64,000 nucleotides of DNA from contig OX485803.1 in the NCBI GenBank assembly GCA_950295325.1, positions 54,143,554 to 54,207,553 of the forward strand, in the 5' to 3' direction. This stretch comes from Polytrichum commune. Its lineage: Eukaryota > Streptophyta > Polytrichopsida > Polytrichales > Polytrichaceae. This document shows positions 4,346 through 64,000 of this stretch, piece after piece. A program made the translations under genes and the position numbers. The notes below the pieces were generated by a model, which worked only from the letters and a program-made list of their open reading frames with translations, did not search any database and had not been told where the DNA came from. Position 1 is the stretch's first letter; every line of letters begins with the position of its first letter.

Positions 4346-5069
4346 CTTGGGTCAGTGCTTGTGTTCGGGTTTGCTCTTGGAGTGACCGTGTGTGTGTGTT
4401 TGTACTTGTTTGCAGACTGAATTGATTGATAGCTCTCCTCGGAGTTCTGATTTCATTGGTTGTGTATAGAAGCTAGCTCTCTTCGGCTATGCTGGTGGAA
4501 AATATAAACAAAATCTCTTGGATCAGTGGTTGTGGGGTTGCGTTGAAGTCATGATCATGCATATATGAACTTGTCGCAGAGTGAATTGATTGACAGATCT
4601 TCTAGTATATTTTGGGAATATCTTTTTCGATTTATGTTGAAACATTTAAGTTCTTGGGTCAGAGCTTGTCGGTATTCTTTGGAGTGATCGTCATGTGTGT
4701 TGTTGCAGGGTGAATTGGCTGGAAGCTCTCTGCGAGTCATGTGACTTCTGATTCCATTTGTTATTTGTGCAAGCTAAGCTCCCTTGAGTTGAAAAAAAAC
4801 AAAAACAAAAAAACAAACACTTGGGCCATCAGTGCCTTGTCGGTTTTCTCTGGAATGAGCATCATCTGTGTTGTTGCAGAGTCAATTGATGGAGAGCTGA
4901 TCTCTCTGATTTTAACTTCTGATTCCTTTGGTCATGTGCTGAAGCTCTCTCTCTCTCTCTCTCTCTCTCTCGTCATGTTGAAACACAAAAATATATGACA
5001 AAACTCTTGGGGGTCGGTCAGTGCCTGTTGGTTTGCACTTGACTGACAAAAAGTCGTCTGCTTTTGCAG
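4346..5069 (+). repeat. degenerate five-copy tandem repeat carrying duplicated 3' splice sites
   Basis: Five units begin with CTTGG(G/A)-(GG)TCAGTG-like words at 4346, 4517, 4653, 4820 and 5006, so the spacing is 136 to 186 bp. Each unit contains GTGATCGTCATGTGTGTTG-like sequence and ends in a splice-acceptor motif: TTTGCAG (AG at 4414), GTCGCAG (4578), GTTGCAG (4707), GTTGCAG (4878) and TTTGCAG (5068). The distance from CTTGG to the AG is 54-68 bp in every unit. The last AG is the one that serves the AP2 exon. A (CT)n tract at 4945-4971 lies in the fourth unit. Confidence 0.8.
4945..4971 (+). repeat. (CT)n microsatellite
   Basis: Uninterrupted CT dinucleotides inside the first intron of the AP2 gene, followed by CGTCATGTTG. 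Confidence 0.95.
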
Positions 5070-5073
5070 GTCG

Positions 5074-7423
5074 ATGGGGAAGGGAAGTGCGTCGTCGACA
5101 GAATTATCATCCGTGGAAGCTGTAAAACAGGGAGTCCGAGATGGCAGAAAGGAGGCGAAGAAATTAGCCGCGAGTAGTACTACTAGTGTGAAGACCGAAG
5201 GTGTGGGTTTGTCATTAACAGTGGAGGCGACATCGAAGCCTCCGGTGAACAGGCGAGGTGTTCGGAAGCGTCCCGGAGTGAAGGGGTATTTGGTGGAGAT
5301 TCGGCCGAAGCGATGGAAGAAGACAATCTGGCTGGGCACATACAACACTCTGTGTGAAGCTTGCAGGGCATATGATGCAGGGATCTTCTACACGAAGAAG
5401 GCATTGCCATTCAACCATCCGGACTCCCTGGGCTCCTTTCCAGACTTACCCTCACACTTGTCTCTCCGAATGGACGAAGACCCTACAAAGCTCGAAGAGG
5501 TCAAGCAATTCATCAAGGCACAGGCCTTGAAAGCGTCCAAGAGAGCTATAGATGCTGTAACTGTTGATTCATTAGAGTGCAGTCCAGACTCTTCTACCTA
5601 CTCTGATGCTGGATCAAATTCTTCTTCAAGATCGGAGAAGGTGGCTAAGACTACTCAGAGTTCCTGCTGCCCGGTGACAGCGAAGGAGGAGGAGCAGGAG
5701 CAGGAGGAGGAGGAGGATAAGGAAGACGAAGAAGAGGAGGAGGAGGAACAGGTGGACATTCAGATTCAGACTCCGAACACGGAGGAAGTCATCAAGCATT
5801 TGGATTCCTTAGTTCATTTGTGCACTGGAGAGGAGGGCGGTTTGAGTAGTTCCCAAGATGAGATGGGTGAAGGGTCGATCTCCACCGAGGAGAGAAACCT
5901 CGATACGATGACCAAGGACTCCGAATCATCACTCCACAAGCTCTGGGATGATGAGCAAATGCTTGTCTCCCCCGGCAGCCACGTTGAGGTCAGTTTGCCA
6001 TGCCTTTTAATAAGAAAAGGCAGTATTTAGTGTGTTTGGTGAGCTTGGTAGGTTTTCTTCCTCCCCTCTTTTTGCCTACTCTTGGAGATGGTGTCATGCG
6101 TGTGATGAACAGATAAGAGATTCTTCATAGCAATGGGAAGCTATGTGGGCGGTCTGCTCTTGGATTTGCTTATGGTGATTTCATGTGTGGATTGTTTGCG
6201 AATTGAGCGAGGATGTTCCAAACCCCACCACCTGATGAGATCAAAAGAGTTGGCCAAATGAGACCAATACATCTTTTGTAGATGGTGCCATGCGTGTCAG
6301 GAGAATATATGAGATTCTTCATAACTTCTTCTGTTTGCAGTTTCAAGGACTCGGTGGTGTTTGCTGCAAGAACTATGTGGCTTTGTTGTTGGTTTGCTTG
6401 AGGTGATTTCATTTGTAGATGTTTCGGATTGAGCAAGATTATTCCAATCCTCACCATCTGAAAATCAAAAGAGTTGGCCAAATGAGGACCGATACGTCTT
6501 CTGTAGATGATGTCATGCGTGTCAGCAGATAAGATGAGATTCTTAATAGCTTCTGCTTGCAGTTGCAAGAACTCAGTAGCTGGTGGGTTTGCTGTTGGAT
6601 TTGCTTGTGGTGGATTTTGTATGGGTTGTTTTGGATTGAGCAAGAGCGTTCCAATCCCTACCGTCTGAAATTTAAAAGAGTTGGTCAAATGAGGACCCAT
6701 ACATCTTTTGTAGATGGTGTCATGCTTGTCAGCAGGTAAGATGAGATTCTTCATAATTTCTTCTGCTTGCAGCTGCAAGAATTCGGTAGGTGGGTTCGCT
6801 GTTGGATTTGTTTGTGGTGAGGATCAATACAGCTTTTGTAGATGTTGGCATGTGTGTGAGCAGATACGATGAGTTCTTCATAGCTTCTTCTTGCAGTTGC
6901 AGGAATTCAATAGGTGGGTTCGCTGTTGGATTTGCTTGTGGTGATTTCGTGTGTGGGTTGTTTGCGAATTGAGCAAGGATGTTCAAACCCCACCACCTGG
7001 AAATCAAAAGAGTTGGCCAAATAAGGAGCAACACATCTTCTTCTGATGTGCGGCCATGGCGATTGCATAGCAGTTTTTGTATGGTATTTACGACACCTGT
7101 GGACAACTAGAGATGTGGCAGAGCGAACTTTCTAACCGCCTTGAATGTCTGTCTGTGTTTGGCAGGGTGCCATGCCAGTAGATGATCGCAGCACCTTTAA
7201 ATATTTTCCACCAGATCTCATACGGCACATTTACTACGATATCAAAGGGAAGTCAAATATCAAGTTTGGGATGCTATGCATTCCAAGTTTCAGCATGGAT
7301 CCACCCGAAATCATAACGGAAGACTGGTACATGAAATCAAATATCTCCGACAACTTGGACACGCAGATTTATCGCGAAGATTGTAATGAAGACATTGAGC
7401 TTTGGGACTTGGGGATGGGGTAA
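5074..7423 (+). CDS. AP2/ERF-like transcription factor (exons 5074-5988 and 7166-7423)
   Basis: The exon from ATG 5074 encodes one AP2 DNA-binding domain at about residues 60-117: RGVRKRP, then LVEIRPKRWKKTIWLGTY, then EACRAYDAGIFY. The family core R-G-V-R, E-I-R, W-L-G-T and A-Y-D is present, but the usual W-G pair after RxRP is replaced by G-V, and the helix A-A-x-A-Y-D reads A-C-R-A-Y-D. AP2 domains bind GC-box or DRE-type elements in the nucleus. Downstream are a Ser-rich stretch and a Glu/Asp run at about 205-229, possibly an activation region. A GAG|GTCAGT donor at 5989 and a TTTGGCAG acceptor at 7164-7165 define a phase-0 intron. The last exon adds 85 residues (GAMPVDDRSTFKYFPPDLIR...) and ends at TAA 7421. 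Total from this ATG is about 390 residues. I cannot assign a subfamily; the sequence is unlike typical angiosperm ERF or DREB domains. Confidence 0.9.
6161..7040 (+). repeat. tandem repeat array filling the second AP2 intron
   Basis: About five degenerate units start with TGGATTTGCTTGTGGTGATT-like sequence at 6161, 6390, 6596, 6803 and 6927 (spacing 229, 206, 207 and 124 bp). Each includes the AAAAGAGTTGGCCAAATGAG block, a TTTGTAGATG(G)TG block, a GAGATTCTTCATA block and then a CTTCTGCTTGCAG-like acceptor (AG at 6339, 6561, 6771 and 6895). The third unit also has a donor-like CAGGTAAG at 6734. The minus-strand open frames here are repeats of the same unit, not genes. Confidence 0.8.
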
Positions 7424-41544: not shown

Positions 41545-42744
41545 CTACATATTGGATGGGAGGCAGGAATAAAGCAACAAATGCCTCGCTACTAGTTGTA
41601 TATTTTTTATAAATGCCTCTGCGAGGCCATTTTGTGAGTGTTCGTAGGGTACTGAATACGTAAGGTTAATCCCGGATGCGGTGCTGTAATCTTCAAACCC
41701 ATGAGATTGGAATTCTTGAGCGTTGCTCATCCTTAGGTGCTTGATTGGGTTATCGGGAAAGTGGTTTTTATATCTAAGGAGGATGGATAGTAGTTTTGGA
41801 AAGGCTAAGTTCGGGGTTGGGAGTAGTGCGACCTCAAGGTGGCTTCCCGATGCGTCAACCAGTACGGAATAGTAGCGAAAGGTTCCCAAGGGTGGGCTTA
41901 TCGGGCCACAGATATCCCCATATATCCTGAAAAGTGGCGGTGGTAATTCTATGGGTAGGATCCAATGTGACAGTCTCCGGATTAGTTTTCCCTGGATGCA
42001 GGCCACACATTCATGCATTTTCCCGGCGTCAGCCGTTGTAGGGGTGTGACCTTGGGTCAAGGGGATCATCTTTCGGAACACCGTTGTTCCTGGATGCCCC
42101 AGTCTAGAATGCCAAATTTCTGGCTTGGTGGCTTTAGTGTCTACAGATACCCCCTGCGCCAGGTTGCGCTCCGACGTGGGACCTCTCTCCCACGCGGCCA
42201 TGCATACCTCTTCCTCACCTAGGGTGGGGCTAGATGCCGAGGGCTTTATGGCAACCTTATAAAGTCCATCGAGGTCCGCGTTAGCGGTGGCAATTACCTG
42301 GGGTCCTTGCCTAAGCTCGATTACTTCTTCATCGCCCTGCATCGCTGTGCAGAGGTGGATATTCTTCGCCCTCAGATCCCGATAGCTGATCAGGCTCCTT
42401 GGGGCGTCTGGGGCGTACATTGCCTTCGGGCAATCGAGGGGGAATTCCCCGGGCAATATGATTGTTGCCCGGCCCTCCCGGAACCTTAAGGTTCGGCTTC
42501 CGGCCATTGTAAGCATCTTACAATTGGACCAGGACTTCTCACTTTGGAAGTGGAAGAATTGTGCCTTAGTAAGGATTGTGTGGGTTGAGGCGCTATCTAG
42601 GAGGGCAACGTCCTGGGTTGACGTAGGCCCTTCCCGGATAGCCATGAAGTTTTCCACATCATAATCAAGTTTAGGCATGTCTGAAGGCTCAAAGTTGTAG
42701 TTTTGTCTAGGTTTATTACAAAGCTCTTGCAATTCCCTGAACAT
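41545..42744 (-). pseudogene. copia protease, GAG-pre-integrase and integrase core
   Basis: This 399-codon open piece holds the aspartic protease motif LLDSAST (residues 49-55), the GAG-pre-integrase zinc motif WHSRLGHPG...CVACIQGK (211-252) and the integrase core. The first catalytic Asp is in GDICGP (residue 277) and the Glu is in NGLAEAFIKN (376). The middle catalytic Asp, normally in R-S-D-N-x-x-E-F, is replaced in RMSNAQEF (338-345), so the core lacks its D-D-E triad. The frame stops at 41545 before the linker. Confidence 0.93.
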
Positions 42745-43800
42745 GTCTACAATGTATTGTGATGCCCTGCAATCCTTTGCAAAATGTCCTTTCCTCCCAC
42801 ATTTGTAACAATTTCCCGAGGTTGGTCTAACTTGTTCATGCTTAGGTGGGAAGTGTCTAGGTCTATGTGGGTTCCCTGTTGCAGGTTTATTATGCTATTT
42901 GGGTGGGGTTTTTTGGATAGAACCTCTTGGTGGCCTACGTGAGGCCTCTGTAACGTGGACTTCCGCATGGTGGTGTACTGGTGAGCCGTCCCGCCGCGGT
43001 CCCGCTCCCACTCCCGTCATTGGTGGTAGTGCTCCCGTGGCTCCGTTTAGCTCCTCCGGCTCCTCCGGCTCCTCCTCTTCTATCTTGGCAATCGTTGTGT
43101 ATACCTCTCTTGTTGGTCGGGATTCCGCGTTGTGAAGGAGTAGTTGGTGGTGCTTTTCGGCGAATAAGAGGTGAACCATGAGCTTGGAGTGCTTCTTGAA
43201 TTCCATGTTGTGGTACTGCTGCGAGAGTATGGCTGTTGTGGGTGGGAACGTGGACAATGTCTTCTCGATTTGCTCCGCCTCCGATATGTCGATGCCACAA
43301 AGTCGGAGTTGGGCGATGATCCGGTGGAGTTCGGAATTGAATGCCGAGAAATTTGGGAAATCGAGTACGCGTATGTTCGTCCAATCCGTGTGGGCTTGAG
43401 GTAGAAATAGCGTTTGCTGATGGTCGAACCGAGCGTCTAACTCTGACCAAAGCTCCGCCGGGTCCTCAACTTGTAGGTATTGGAGTCTCAACGTTGGTTC
43501 GAGGTGACGCCTCAATATCATGAGGGCGTGCCATCTGTCTGCCTCTGGTATCTTTGGTGCAGCCGGGGTCCTTGTTCTTGTTGTGGTCTCATCGTCGTCA
43601 TCGTTGGTTGTAGTTGGTGTTTGAGGTGAGTAGGTGAGGGTCTTTGCAAGATCCTCCGCACTCAAAAGCACTTTAGAGTCATTTACCCATTCTAGGAAGT
43701 TGGAACCATCCGCACTTAAGGGTGCGAATAGTAATGCATGCATCTTAGTTTCAGTGAAGGATGCTTTTGTGGACATGACCTCAATCCTAGTATTAGCCAT
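42745..43800 (-). pseudogene. copia gag with zinc knuckle
   Basis: The frame from ATG 43800 to 42895 gives a UBN2-type gag: LSADGSNFLEWVNDSKVLL, RWHALMILRRHLEPTLRLQY, LWSELDARFDHQQTL and a low-complexity EEEEPEEPEEL stretch. A zinc knuckle CYKCGRKGHFAKDC (about 42768-42812) follows in a shifted frame after a stop at 42895. The gag N-terminus is the best-preserved part of the element. Confidence 0.93.
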
Positions 43801-45023
43801 CTGTTTGGTGAAATGTAACTGAAATGACGGTAAATGTATATAAAGTCTACATTTGGTTATTAGCCTAGCAATCAGGTGCGTGTATAATGTTGACCAAAAA
43901 CTATATTGAAAGTTATCTTAAGTCTGAACTTAAGCTAACTTTGTATCTGTACTGGCAGTCTGTGTACAAGAAGTATAGACAGATATACGTGGGCAGCGTA
44001 TATACTGTCTATAGTTTAAGCATAATTCAGTTATCTCAGCAAAGTCTGGTTACAGTCTATCAATGTGTGAACTGATTCAAAGAGAAATAAATTTTCAGGG
44101 TAACAGGGGTAAAGGCAGACTTACCTGAGGTAGGTGGCAACTTTAAAAGAGAGAGATAATGTAGGGCTGGTTTTAACTAACCAGTAAGCATTTGTTCAAG
44201 GGAAAGTCCTATATGGCTAAAACAAACTAAGGTAGTATTAACTTGCCTTAGTTTAGCAAGACAAAATAAACTCAAATCAGGTAAGTTAGGATCTTTTCTA
44301 AGTAAAACTTAGATAAACATGGCTACAAATCTATATATATATATATAATATATATATAAGAAAAGGTATATTTCATAGATAAAGACAATTAGAGTAATAT
44401 GTATATCTCTGGTTTCTTTTGGTAAAACATAAAATAGATAGCAAAATAGCATAAATTGGAAATTAAAATCATATAGATGAGGGGGAAAGAACCTTAGAGT
44501 AGAATTTTATGGTGAAAATTCGGCAGCATAGTGTTTATGAATATGGAGTTTTCAGGAAGTAATTTCTGCAGCGTAATTCTCCCGAAAAATGAGGAAAAGA
44601 TCAGAAAGTGTAAGGTGAAAAAAATCGGGCAATACTTCGGTATTGTAAATATGACTTTATGACCTTTCTACTAGTCTAATTTTGGGTAAATTTCGGTAGC
44701 ATAACTGTACTATTGGATGATCCAGAATATAGAGAGGTAGAGCTCAGGTAGGAAATGAGAGTCAGATATAGTAACTAGTGGCAAAATAACAAAGTATATA
44801 TCTGGTTCGGAGTAAAGTCTGCTCTCTAACGGTAAATGCTATCTGCCTTGTAGCAATGTGATCTTTTGATGCTGCAACTAGCTGAGAATGTTGAGCTAAT
44901 TTTGTATCTCAATCTGATCACTCAAAAATGCTATTTGATCTGGTGGTTTAGCATTCTGAAGTAACAATACTTCGAGTAATAAGTACTCTTGCTAATGAGA
45001 AAAGAGAAAAATCCAAGACACTA

Positions 45024-58332: not shown

Positions 58333-59503
58333 TATCCGTGGATTTGAAGGGCTTTATTTAGATTTTAAAAGTATTTTTATGGGTTGTTAAAAAAATCTAA
58401 ATTTTCAGGTTGTTCAAGAACTTTTTTGGGGGGAACATGCTACCCAAAATCCAAACCAAACATTGATATGGATTGGAATATTTATGTAGAGTGAGGTACA
58501 TATGATTTTTTGCATGATTAGAGATACTAATGAAATAAATATCAAATATATATCAAAGTTGTACCCACAAAATTTCTTGTTATATTATACATTTAATATA
58601 TTTTTATAATATAATTATACATCTTGTTTATTGTAGAGGTAAAATTCACGTATCATGTGCCAACAAGTTTCATATGGCAAGTATGCACACTCTCTGGTTG
58701 CCACGATTTGATTGTTACATTCTTATTGTTGGACAAAATAGAATATTATGAGCCCCAACAAAACAAATGTTAGGCACACTCCTTATTTCACCATGTGACA
58801 TGCCATTAACTATACACTTCATTATCTCAATGATGCGGGCATTCATATTCTAAGGGCTTAATTTTATGTGCATATATTCTTAATCGCCTTAAGCTAAATT
58901 ACCTAATATTGTGGCATACAATTATAAATTCAATATTCATCAATCATCATAAAATTCCAAATCAATAGGCTTACTCATCTATTTCTAGGAGCCCACTGCT
59001 TAAGAAGTAAATTTGTCCACTCTACCACCGATTGATGAAATTGGAGAAGTGGATGTGAAAGTTGTCTTAGAATAGGTGGCTTTGGTTTATTATCAATGAT
59101 CAAATGATCAATACATTAGTACATCGTAGGCCTACTCTACCACATGGCGACTGTTAGAGCCTGACATGGTTGGCTGCACACATAGACACAACCATGTATA
59201 GGTGTCATGATTATAAGGGTGGATGCATGGTTGAGTGGACCAGTTTTCTGGTCACAGCTCAGTTTTCAGCATACCACCGTGTCTTGCAAGCTAAGTTCCG
59301 TGCAATCCAAATAAGCTATGGTTCTGAAAATTTGGGCTCACAATCCTAACTTCAATACTTAGTTAACCCCTTTATTTTTTGGTTGGAATCATTTTTTAAG
59401 TTAGTGTCATGGAGTTTTAAAATTAGGGTATGGATTGTCACAAGCAGAACCTCATTTGGGATTTAGGTGTTCAGCGTAAAAACAACTATTATTTCTTGTA
59501 AGA
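58333..59503. other. AT-rich DNA, no supported gene
   Basis: No recognisable feature. It may include the left end of the transposon carrying the DDE gene, but no terminal repeat was identified. Confidence 0.4.
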
Positions 59504-59951
59504 GTGACTTTGTATGTGATGCGCTGCATTGTAAGGTCCATTGTGCTTTTTTTAATTTTCTCATTCTCCATATTAGTATACTACTTATGGACTTCTAAGT
59601 ACATTGAAACCAGTCAAATTTTTGGAAGTCCATACCATGTGGATAACTATTCATTTTTGGCTTTTTTTGGGTGGGAACCTACTAATGTACCAATTGTACA
59701 TGTGGGCTTGCCTTCAGATTTTGATCCACGGTTGTTTCACAACGTCCTTTACTTTAGGGTTCCCTCTCCCTTAGACTGTAGCACATCAAAAGTAGATGAT
59801 ATTAGTTTGGTCGAAATGGATGAATGTCTCAACATGGACGAGGTTCGCATGCAACAATGGGGTTCCTCGGCAATCCAGCAAACGTCTCTTTTCTTCCGCC
59901 ACTCACCTGTTTGCCGACCCCCGCCTCTGGTGTGAACAACTCTAGCTGCAG
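59504..59951 (+). other. open frame upstream of the transposase, possible 5' exon
   Basis: A 143-codon plus-strand frame (59504-59935) has a hydrophobic N-terminal stretch (IVLFLIFSFSILVYYLW) and then FDPRLFHNVLYFRVPSPLD, with an alternative start around ATG 59817. An acceptor-like CTAGCTGCAG ends at 59951 just before the transposase ATG. I do not recognise the protein; it may be a first exon, 5' leader or chance. Confidence 0.25.
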
Positions 59952-62900
59952 ATGGGGAGAGTTAGGGCACGCGAAAGGAGGGCCGGCATTCGTCGCGATG
60001 GTCCTGCAGGAAGAGCTGAGCGTGGAGAACACAATGCGGGGGATGTAGACGATGTTGCGAGGGAGCGACATCGTGAGCGCGCAAGAGATCGGCAACGTGA
60101 ATCACGGCGTAGAAGAAGAGAGGCTGCGAATCCAAGAGCGCGCATCGCCAATGGCTCCCTGCCTGCCGCCGACCTAGCAGGCGATGACGGTGTGAATCGA
60201 AGATTGGTGCGGCGCGATGTTGGGGAGATTTTGGCTTGCGTGGAGAGAAGTTTGGGAAGACAAAGGCGATCACATCTGCACAAGCGAGCTGTCATGCGAA
60301 CAATTTGGGAGAGCCCCCTGATAAGGGACCTTTTGCCACCGGAGGCCCAACCGGTTCCTGCCGAAGTCCACGCACGCGAGGGGATTGTTTCCAGCTTGTG
60401 TCAATAATTGTCGGAGGTCAAGACTTCACGAACGAGGGCACAACTTGTTACCAAGCACGCAATCCTAACAGCCGCCATCACAAATGGTAGCCAGGGCTCT
60501 GCTCATCGAACAGCTCGCTTATTGGGCGTTCACCATCGGAATGTAACAATGGTTGCCAGCAGGAGAGCCACCATGCTTAGTAATGCGCAGATCCAGTGGA
60601 CTCTATCTATCAGGAAAACAAGGAGCGATGCCACAAGTGATTTTGTGAAAGACATTGTCGGCAATTGGTGGGCTTCACAGACACGGCCTTCACCTAACCG
60701 TAAAGAAGTGGTGAGAAAGTGGGTAGCTCCCAAAACCTACGTTCAACACCATGCTCAATACCTGTTGGAGTCACTAGTGAGTACTCTTCTTCCGTTGATT
60801 TTATGGTATTTGTTGTATGTAGTCGTTGCGATCGATTATAACATTGAAATGCGCTTTGATGAAAATCTCCTCTTTTTTCATCTCTCCAACCAGCTGCAAC
60901 AACTGCGACTTCGTGTTTGTCGAGCCCTCTGCTTGTTCAGGGGTATGCGCCCAATCCGTTCCACAGTAATCAAAGTTATCAACCGGGCTTATCTAAAACT
61001 CAGCGGTAGTTAAGGGGATGAATTCAAGAAAATGAAGTCGTTATCGAAACCATCGTGACCTGACGGCAGATACTACTTCTACTCGTTAATCACCAAGAGC
61101 TCAAAACTTAACCTAGAATTGGAAGAGAAAGTGATCGAATTGAGGTTGGCAGATAGAAGCTTACATAATTGTAGCCAGTTCGACCTCGTATATGGCAGCC
61201 GCAGCTGAGGCATAATTCAAGCCTTGCAGGATGACCGGCCCTCGCGATTTTGGATTCAGGTATGAAGGGGGATAGGGCATCCCCCTTTTTTGAATTGCGT
61301 GCACATAACCATGAACAATTGTCCGATTGATTGAACTAAGATTAATTGAAGTGTCTAATTCGGTTGCTAATCTTAATTGCACACCTCTATTTCAAGTGGT
61401 GTGTGGGCCGGTTTGGCTCCAAGAACAGATGAGCACAAGAATCTTCACTTTGACCCAGACTAAGATACTCATATGAGCTCCAAAGATTATGAGGGTTGTG
61501 GCTATGACCTTCATTTGGAATCGCTAACCATCGCATCCTAGTCATTTTTTTAATATCCTAGGAGAAGTGTGCTACTCGGAAAAAGTGAGTAGTTAAGACC
61601 CATCAACCTTCAGCAGGTTTTTCCAGTAGAGGAGAGTTTTTTTCTGTAAAGATTTAATTAATGAGTATGTCTGCGACCGTGCGGCCGTTGCAGAACCTTC
61701 TGGTTGGGTTTAGGCATGGTATGAAATGATGTGTATTCTTTCTCCAACGTTTTAGTGGTGTGTGATAACGTCATATATTTAAATTGCATTTAATTGATAG
61801 ATCCACAAGCAAATGCTTTTTTGGAGATTAAAACCTTCACAAACACTTACTTTTCTATTTGCCGAGTGAGGGGATTCTTATCCCATAAAACTTAGTCTTA
61901 TTCTCGGGAGGTCTGAGGCATCGGCCTGTTACTGATTTTGTTTAGTGTTTGCAGATGGCATTCTACATGCGGTTTAGGGAGGCTCATCCACATGTTGTTG
62001 TTGGTAAGCGGATCTTTGATTCACTGCAACCATATTGGGTGAAAAAACTAGAGGACAGAAATGTTTGTTGCTGTATCTACCATGTTGAAATGGAAGAGTT
62101 ACTTTCTGCATTTAATCAGCTGCGATCTAAATCTGGGATACATAGCAAAGGCGAATGCGCATGCCACTGTGAGGTTTGTTTAAGTGAATCAAATGTGGAC
62201 CACTGTGTTGCTGGAGTGTTCATTTATCCAGGACTGACAACCATATCAGAGGCAGTGTTGTGCCCTAAGCTTCCTAACGCAGTGTGGCATTCAAAGGATT
62301 GTCTGTTTGGTGATTGTTTGAGCTGCGGCATTGACATTCTCCCATTATGTCCTACTGAAGAGGACGGTCTCTCTCCAAGTACTGTGCAATGGAAACATTA
62401 CGAGATGCAGTCAATACTCACAAAGAAGGGTCAAGAGAGGAAGAAATTGCAGCTTCTTTACAAAGAGACAACATCACGTGAGCTAATTGACTACCTCAAA
62501 CCAAAGCTGCAATTCTTTGTGCGCCATACTTTTGTGGCCAGGTGGGAAGACGACCAATTCAGGACATGCTTAAGGACAGCCCCTTCAGACACAATGGTGT
62601 CTGTGATTGACTATGCTGAGAACTACTCCTTTGAGGTACAGAATGAAGTCCAATCTGTGCATTGGCATAGCTACCAGATTACCATTCTTGTGCATATCAC
62701 ATATGTAAGAAATCCTAACCCAGATGTAGACGATGAGAGCACTAGGAATATCACAACCTACCACTTCTACATTTCTGATGATATGAAACATGATAGCTAT
62801 TTCGTGCAACACTGCCTTTTGATGCATTGGGAGAGTGTTGTTCAAGGAGGTTTTAGGCCCAAGCATCATTGGAGTTGGTCTGATGGTTGTGCAAGTCAAT

Positions 62901-63850
62901 TCAAAAGCCGTGTGCCGTGGTACTTTGTATCTCGGTATCCGGAGATTACGGGTGGTTGTTCGTGCACTTGGTCTTTTTTTGGAACAGGTCATGAGAAAGG
63001 TCCACATGATGGAGCCGGTGCTGTCCTCAAGCGCTACATCAGAACAGCCCAGTTGGACATCAACGGACCGAAGCTATAATGTGCTGAGCATGTTGTGGGG
63101 TTCTTGCGGAAAGAGCTCAGTGACCGCCCCAACACGGTTTACGGCGATAGGAGGCCCGTAAACAGAAATTTTTGGCACGTCTTGCAAGGTGATGTGGATA
63201 GGGAACATGAATATGACTGTGAGCCAATACCTGGATGCAGGGATTTTCATTATGTCCGTTCTGTTGGCAGCATGGAGGTCGGCAAGTTGCTAAAGCGTGG
63301 TTTGGCATGTTTTTGTTTCTCTTGTATTCAAGGGAACTGGGAGGGCTGTGAAAACCGGGCTTGGGCCGGTGATTGGATGCTGGAGGTGCTAGTTCCCTTT
63401 AATTCTGCGTATGTCCGAAATGTCCAGCTGCAGGAGTTCAATGCCGATGATTGGCATGATGTCGGGGTTAATGGAAATTACTTTGCGTCCATATTGGAAT
63501 TGGGAGACAATTTTGCGGTTGCTGCCTCTCCTGATAACGAAGAGAATGTTGACTTCTATGTTCTGGTATGCACTAGAAAAGCTTATACTTGCAAGACTGC
63601 TTTCGTTTGCAAGTGGGGTGAGGAATTCATACCAGGGGACTCATTGATTGAGGGGTTGTACTACCAGAAATATGGTTTGGGGGTTGATACATACGTCCTT
63701 TTGAGGAAGTCTCAGAAAGCCCACATACTAGCGGAGCATGTTTGTGCTGTGAAATTTCCTATGTTGCTCGGCGATCATCGGGTCTCTGGGAATGACCCGG
63801 TCTACAAGCTGCAGAGAAAAGTAGAGGAGGCCATCCTAGAGCAGGCTTAG
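59952..63850 (+). pseudogene. DDE-type transposase gene, two exons, with two in-frame TAA stops
   Basis: Exon 1 runs from ATG 59952 to 60776: an Arg/Glu-rich N-terminus (ERHRERARDRQRESRRRRRE), a TAA at 60405, then in the same frame a helix-turn-helix-like TARLLGVHHRNV and KEVVRKWVAPKTYVQHHAQ. A CTA|GTGAGT donor at 60777 and a GTTTGCAG acceptor at 61953-61954 give a phase-0 intron of 1178 bp. Exon 2 (61955-63850) has a Cys-rich zone (CACHCEVC, CLFGDCLSCG) and a DDE-like core: SVIDYAENYSFEVQNEVQ, WSDGCASQFKSR and FFGTGHEKGPHDGAGAVLKR. TAA 63077 follows NGPKL, but the frame stays open to TAG 63848. The last 250 codons end in a BAH-like stretch (YVLLRKSQKAHILAEHV). I know similar D-x-A-E-N-Y...S-D-G-x-x-x-Q-F-K...H-x-K-G-x-x-D-G cores from invertebrate transposon proteins but cannot name the superfamily. 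Confidence 0.8.
60777..61954 (+). other. phase-0 intron of the DDE transposase gene
   Basis: Starts GTGAGT and ends TTTGCAG. It contains a diverged minus-strand copy (61572-61510) of the coding remnant at 56640-57119, and a plus-strand open tail to 61013 that is simply read-through of exon 1. Length 1178 bp. Confidence 0.75.
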
Positions 63851-64000
63851 AATCATAAGTGTACCATTCCATTCTTAGCTCAAAATTTCATAAATTTTGC
63901 CAAGTTTCAGATGTCCCCGCTTGCATTCTCTGCTTTCAACTGCACTCTAACCTGGTTTTGATGAGCCTCTCTGATGGTATGATTTTGATGATGAGTAGCT
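63851..64000 (+). other. 3' flank of the transposase gene to the window edge
   Basis: No terminal inverted repeat or polyadenylation signal could be identified before the end of the window, so the right end of the presumed transposon lies outside. Confidence 0.4.

Follow-up and report, generated by a model that had tools for sequence, protein, structure and literature searches.

In the accessible part of one published account, Sola transposons are characterized by a DDD transposase, 4-bp target-site duplications (TSDs), terminal inverted repeats (TIRs) of 11-1124 bp and a length of mostly 2-9 kb, with some elements exceeding 15 kb; the same account places them in Physcomitrella and calls them uncommon in flowering plants (PMC10741241). 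Further records, likewise as excerpted, list a Physcomitrella Sola1 and a Capsicum Sola (PMC9033089) and report Sola from Azolla (PMC6786969) and Ceratopteris (PMC6890710), giant Sola-1 elements from the brown alga Ectocarpus (PMC12477816) and bivalve Sola1 elements of 5.4 kb on average (PMC10294476). Amoebal Sola2 elements encode an 888-aa transposase and have TIRs of 12-21 bp and 4-bp TSDs, and their copies have the 5' part in common, differ in the 3' part and include Fanzor1 as cargo, according to the available text of their description (PMC3627910).

We analysed a 64,000-nucleotide stretch of DNA from Polytrichum commune (the window), in which an earlier note had pointed to an unusual transposase gene. 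Our data make it highly probable that this gene encodes the transposase of a large DNA transposon of the cut-and-paste type, with Sola, to which we assign it by published traits, as the most likely superfamily. The element itself is most likely a broken copy of a transposon of the Sola kind, which is already known in mosses and ferns; its uncommon feature is a second gene, which stands beside the transposase gene in relatives within the same plant. Exact ends, duplications and gene structure are hereby given for a Sola-like lineage in a land plant.

The element, its ends and its copies

The features of the locus, in window numbering, are:

59213..59216, no strand: left target-site duplication ATAA; right partner at 70764-70767, outside the window
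59217..64000, plus strand: portion of the DNA transposon inside the window; the whole is 11,547 bp long and runs on to 70763
59217-70763: whole element, equal to G000:C1:54202770-54214316; right end beyond the window
59217..59242, plus strand: left terminal inverted repeat, 26 bp, perfect; right copy at 70738-70763, outside the window
59952..60776, plus strand: transposase exon 1, 275 codons, 825 bp; ATG at 59952, in-frame stop at 60405-60407
60777..61954, plus strand: putative intron (GT...AG), placed by a frame break common to other subfamilies
61955..63850, plus strand: transposase exon 2, 631 codons and stop, 1,896 bp; in-frame stop at 63077-63079

The leftmost 4.8 kb of this element fall inside the window. 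The inverted ends of the element, GGGTGGATGCATGGTTGAGTGGACCA, match perfectly over their 26 bp, and ATAA flanks it on both sides. Absence of a right-hand TIR was considered and rejected, as the partner ends were located. Over its first 6,038 bp the window element is 99.4% identical (36 differences) to a 32.4-kb copy on C6; the end of that copy also matches the last 594 bp of the window element, at 99.3% identity, and the flanks of the two are unlike. Beyond the shared 6,038 bp, the C6 copy contains 3.2 kb that do not match the window element. Replacement of its middle by repair filler was considered and rejected, as its second gene is present (C6:32758263-32759528 and 32778064-32778264) but split by about 18.5 kb, and nested insertion is the simpler explanation for most of its length.

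The earlier note had proposed looking for TIRs common to other genomic copies, and these are plentiful: a search for the 22-bp end motif gave 44 places (23 forward and 21 reverse, with at most two mismatches), and one for the end motif of a subfamily at about 45% transposase identity (the 45% subfamily) at 19, while the reversed pattern of either gave none. From 30 of the 44 and 4 of the 19 places we paired 17 elements by eye; the 14 places left over from the 44 comprise eight inner copies and six that are partnerless. An exact 4-bp duplication flanks 14 of the 17 outer terminus pairs, compared with 0.19 expected from mispaired flanks, and duplications of 3 bp or of 5 to 8 bp were found in none of the 17. 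The target sites are mixed and include CACA, GTGG, TCCT, CTCT and AAGT, next to the ATAA of the window copy. In the subfamily of L011, L013 and L016 an inner TIR was also tried as the true end and rejected, since the outer end has a TSD and none was found at the three inner sites tried (of eight), whose pairings also served as a control.

The three pairs that have no exact duplication are those at C1:24132894, C1:57999748 (TTCT versus TCCT) and C3:27962597. The first of these has an outer flank that equals the outer flank of the copy at C1:24062755 in reverse complement. The two copies (C1:24062755-24078455 and C1:24132894-24148594) lie in opposite orientation, 54 kb apart, and have the flank of one end in common and that of the other not, which looks like an inversion or exchange.

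Between their paired ends the elements measure 9.7-50.8 kb. The long ones probably owe much of their size to later insertions, because in the 32.4-kb copy the halves of the second gene have come to lie some 18.5 kb apart. The longest unit, G000:C1:10939948-10990729, extends over 50.8 kb between two element ends and has an exact AAGT duplication.

The transposase would bind the short TIRs, and a DDD-type active site, if its chemistry is as presumed, would excise the element and insert it into target DNA whose strands are cut 4 bp apart; repair of this stagger would leave direct repeats of 4 bp. The window copy inserted at an ATAA site, and with stops in both of its exons any further movement would need transposase supplied by other copies.

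The transposase gene

The predicted transposase measures about 906 aa over two exons (275 and 631 codons), both made of whole codons, with the splice signals GT at 60777 and AG at 61953-61954. A frame break between exon 1 and exon 2 lies at the matching protein position in six members (L010, L011, L017, L023, L025 and L026), which are 39-85% identical to L010 in exon 2; an AG precedes exon 2 in all six, and the donor GT was read in the window copy and in L010 only. In L021 and L022 the frame of exon 2 is broken further. From these frames we infer that the gene is spliced, and the split gene structure proposed earlier agrees with the two exons and the common position of the break, although the frame of the window copy is not open.

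Of the stops at 60405 and 63077 in the window copy, its C6 partner has neither. Exon 2 begins with a Cys/His-rich part, the Cys-rich zone of the earlier description, followed by the core with D219, D310 and D352 (numbered within exon 2), which are the aspartates of the motifs DYAENY, SDGCASQFK and FFGTGHEKGPHDG; all three motifs are present in exon 2 as had been described. These three residues are invariant in all six aligned members, as are D275, D276 and D280, and are likely to form the DDD triad, an assignment made by eye among several invariant aspartates. The GHEKG within the motifs noted earlier is indeed present in the window copy, but six of six relatives in the exon 2 alignment read GHGKG, and relative to the 99.4% identical C6 copy GHEKG results from a G-to-A change at 62994. 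With stops in both exons and GHEKG in place of the GHGKG of its six aligned relatives, the window copy is dead.

A Pfam scan of the transposase (window exon 1 pieces, L011 exon 1, exon 2) gave nothing above cut-off, so that the helix-turn-helix-like part proposed for the N-terminus found no counterpart among the Pfam models, either in the window exon 1 pieces or in L011 exon 1, and a PDB sequence search gave no convincing match. AlphaFold2 run on the single sequence reached a pLDDT of 31 for the start of exon 2 and 34 for the core alone. As no Pfam model finds this transposase, Pfam-based annotation would miss it.

Affiliation with Sola

The element was compared with described superfamilies by its traits. 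The 4-bp duplications of the 14 pairs and the TIRs, 26 bp and perfect in the window element, correspond to those published for Sola. With Sola1, as represented by Physcomitrella and the giant Sola-1 elements of Ectocarpus, the elements have in common 4-bp TSDs, TIRs, a length of about 10 kb and more, a plant or algal host and a probable DDD transposase; this likeness is one of traits, and the convergent second gene kept here is unmentioned in the accessible portions of the Sola descriptions. The Sola2 elements of Dictyostelium and Polysphondylium resemble them, as far as the available text goes, in a similar transposase length, short TIRs, 4-bp TSDs and copies that are common in the 5' part and diverge further on. 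The Sola2 duplications described there are AT-rich (AWWT and alike; PMC3627910), whereas the sites here are mixed. A Pfam scan of the cargo frames gave no Fanzor-type domain. A placement near Sola1 is perhaps appropriate, solely in view of the moss and giant examples classified under that name and of the misfit with Sola2 sites.

Harbinger, CACTA and MuDR elements encode a second, often DNA-binding protein beside the transposase, and their TSDs measure 3, 2-3 and about 9 bp, respectively. The elements described here resemble them in the second protein and differ in the length of the duplications, and the frames scanned with Pfam gave no match to any of the three; for Mutator, the accessible part of the literature gives a TSD of 7-12 bp (PMC10741241). 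Kolobok and piggyBac, for which the sources as excerpted name TTAA target sites, were rejected, as TTAA is found in none of the 14 duplications. KDZ (Zisupton-like) elements have TSDs of about 8 bp and KDZ/CxC Pfam domains; they were set aside in view of the 4-bp duplications and of Pfam results without a KDZ/CxC match. Ginger, whose trait in the available text is a Gypsy-like integrase (PMC10741241), was dismissed because the Pfam matches include no integrase domain.

The transposase could instead belong to a separate, unnamed superfamily with 4-bp duplications and a DDD-like core that is distantly or not related to Sola. Such a lineage would suit the Pfam scan without a hit above cut-off, the PDB sequence search without a convincing match and the conserved second gene, which is absent from the accessible Sola descriptions, but TSD, TIR and size match the published Sola traits, and the literature, as far as it was available, already knows Sola from a moss, so that we regard a separate superfamily as unlikely. 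The suggestion of a poorly described lineage is borne out in that the protein falls outside the families described by Pfam, and weakened in that the element fits published Sola traits. Sola membership remains the preferred reading.

Copy number, divergence and residence in the genome

The genome searched comprises 408 Mb, 406 Mb of it in seven large contigs of 42-78 Mb. With the 374-aa start of exon 2 as query it contains 111 matching stretches, which excludes a chance resemblance; some genes yield at least two stretches, and the stretch counts are lower bounds. At least 300 residues are spanned by 56 of the 111, of which 38 have no internal stop, and identity to the query ranges from 41 to 100% across these longer matches. 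Along about 6.8 kb, the copies L018, L019 and L020 match L017 at 99.6-99.8% identity, and their left flanks are unlike, which speaks for recent movement. The lineage offers many uninterrupted transposase frames, and near-identical copies occur as well. Ends, TIRs, 4-bp duplications and the many copies together uphold the earlier view that the protein belongs to a DNA transposon and is very probably its transposase.

For two subfamilies with 85% protein identity in exon 2, dN amounts to 0.088 and dS to 1.93, which is near saturation, and the resulting dN/dS of about 0.045 shows that the protein has been under purifying selection between them. In the other five comparisons (two of exon 2, three of the second gene) dS was saturated and gave no ratio. 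Purifying selection would also be expected if the transposase had been domesticated as a host gene; since both exons of the window copy are interrupted by stops, the copy has TIRs and a TSD, and a near-identical one exists elsewhere, we consider domestication exceedingly improbable.

The earlier note knew this type of protein mainly from invertebrates and took its presence in a land plant as a possible sign of horizontal transfer. That the host is a plant was confirmed by its 34 WRKY matches, counted exon by exon, against zero across 14 control genomes; the small size of this WRKY set and the seven chromosomes may point to a moss-like lineage. A plant host is not in itself an oddity, as Sola is reported from Physcomitrella, Capsicum, ferns and a brown alga in the accessible literature, and transfer need not be invoked to explain it. 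The motifs SDG...Q.K and GHGKG..DG occur in cnidarian and aphid proteins, and the occurrence of the protein type in invertebrates, including these two groups, is what would favour a recent entry into the moss genome from an invertebrate. Such an entry is very unlikely: many divergent lineages (41-100% over the longer matches) occur in this one genome, synonymous divergence is near saturation in the one measurable pair, and other land plants are already reported to have Sola, as far as the available sources go. The many lineages and the near-saturated synonymous divergence speak instead for long residence and make a single recent transfer event unlikely. Prokaryote genomes and viral contigs, each scanned with two short peptide patterns, gave no relative, and among 16 stretches of viral contigs that matched a DNA pattern and were read in frame, none resembles the transposase by eye.

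A second, convergent gene

In several subfamilies of this moss, the Sola-like elements carry a second, conserved gene, which is encoded on the other strand and runs toward the transposase gene from the far element end. In the 15.7-kb element of L013 it consists of a 517-aa frame (L071:2338-3888, minus strand) and a further 302-aa frame. The second gene of the window element lies outside the window at C1:54212459-54213901, is 60% identical and has one stop, and its further frame is 40% identical; in the L024 element, whose subfamily has 64-65% transposase identity, the second gene stands at about 40%. A profile built from these three sequences, two of which bridge a stop or a break in the frame, was run on a few frames taken from four loci and also matches the 45% subfamily, at L088 (E 7e-12 and 4e-11) and L017 (E 7e-9); the genome-wide search with a single sequence gave weak values there, its weakest rows lying at about 1e-5 to 6e-4. 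Each element of the 45% subfamily appears to have two genes of the second type.

Genome-wide, the second gene yields 83 matching stretches (83 of 106 candidates scored; one gene can give several stretches). Of these 83, 61 have a transposase match no more than 20 kb away, compared with 0.79 expected from random placing and a maximum of 5 in 1,000 draws, and 59 of the 61 are oriented convergently. For 17 of the 83 there is no transposase match within 50 kb. When the second of the two genes of the 45% subfamily served as query, its N-terminal block alone, at about 35% identity, was also seen at places such as C4:55506127, C7:458739, C2:65551840 and C6:129910, by eye without a transposase match. 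These solitary blocks speak against a purely element-borne second gene, and the block may derive from, or have entered, a host family.

The second protein has a coiled coil by look and, at its C-terminus, a weak RING-like match (zf-RING_2, E 0.0067, below cut-off), and it belongs to no firm family. By analogy with other two-gene transposons, we would guess that it likeliest serves as an accessory of transposition, in end binding or nuclear transport, or in escape from silencing. The Sola descriptions, in their accessible parts, hold no second gene of this kind, and we make no claim of priority.

These observations could be explained by a plant Sola-like branch with two genes, a transposase and a convergent partner composed of N-terminal block, coiled coil and RING-like C-terminus, which was kept down to about 45% transposase identity, was doubled in one subfamily, is required either to transpose or to evade silencing, and arose independently of Harbinger-like two-gene systems. 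We advance this model tentatively, as a possibility to which we give less than even weight. If true, its two-gene division of labour would parallel that of Harbinger, yet be independent in origin. The second gene offers a testable case for two-protein transposition in a superfamily that the available literature describes by its transposase alone.

Other cargo and neighbouring sequences

Two copies of one subfamily, L011 and L013, were read through their middle. Both have, between the transposase gene and the inner TIR, a frame (L011:5729-6241, plus strand) that corresponds to part of the host ribosomal protein eL21, namely residues 79-161. Its best PDB match by phmmer has an E-value of 1e-33 (L011), to chains that we take to be of plants, and its Pfam match (0.0026) is below cut-off. 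The presence of this host fragment in two copies indicates that such elements can come to carry host DNA. The element of L011 also contains a 407-aa frame (L029:2891-4111, plus strand), broken in L013, with weak BED-like zinc finger matches and an H-D-rich stretch; a TET/JBP-like oxygenase was considered for this frame and dropped, as neither Pfam nor PDB supports it.

Elsewhere in the window, the frame at 5047-6027 on the plus strand has a weak AP2-domain match (E 0.00024, below the Pfam cut-off) and is possibly a plant transcription-factor gene. Positions 41548-43917 on the minus strand hold frames of a Copia-type retrotransposon, with Retrotran_gag_2 (below cut-off), a zinc knuckle and gag_pre-integrase.
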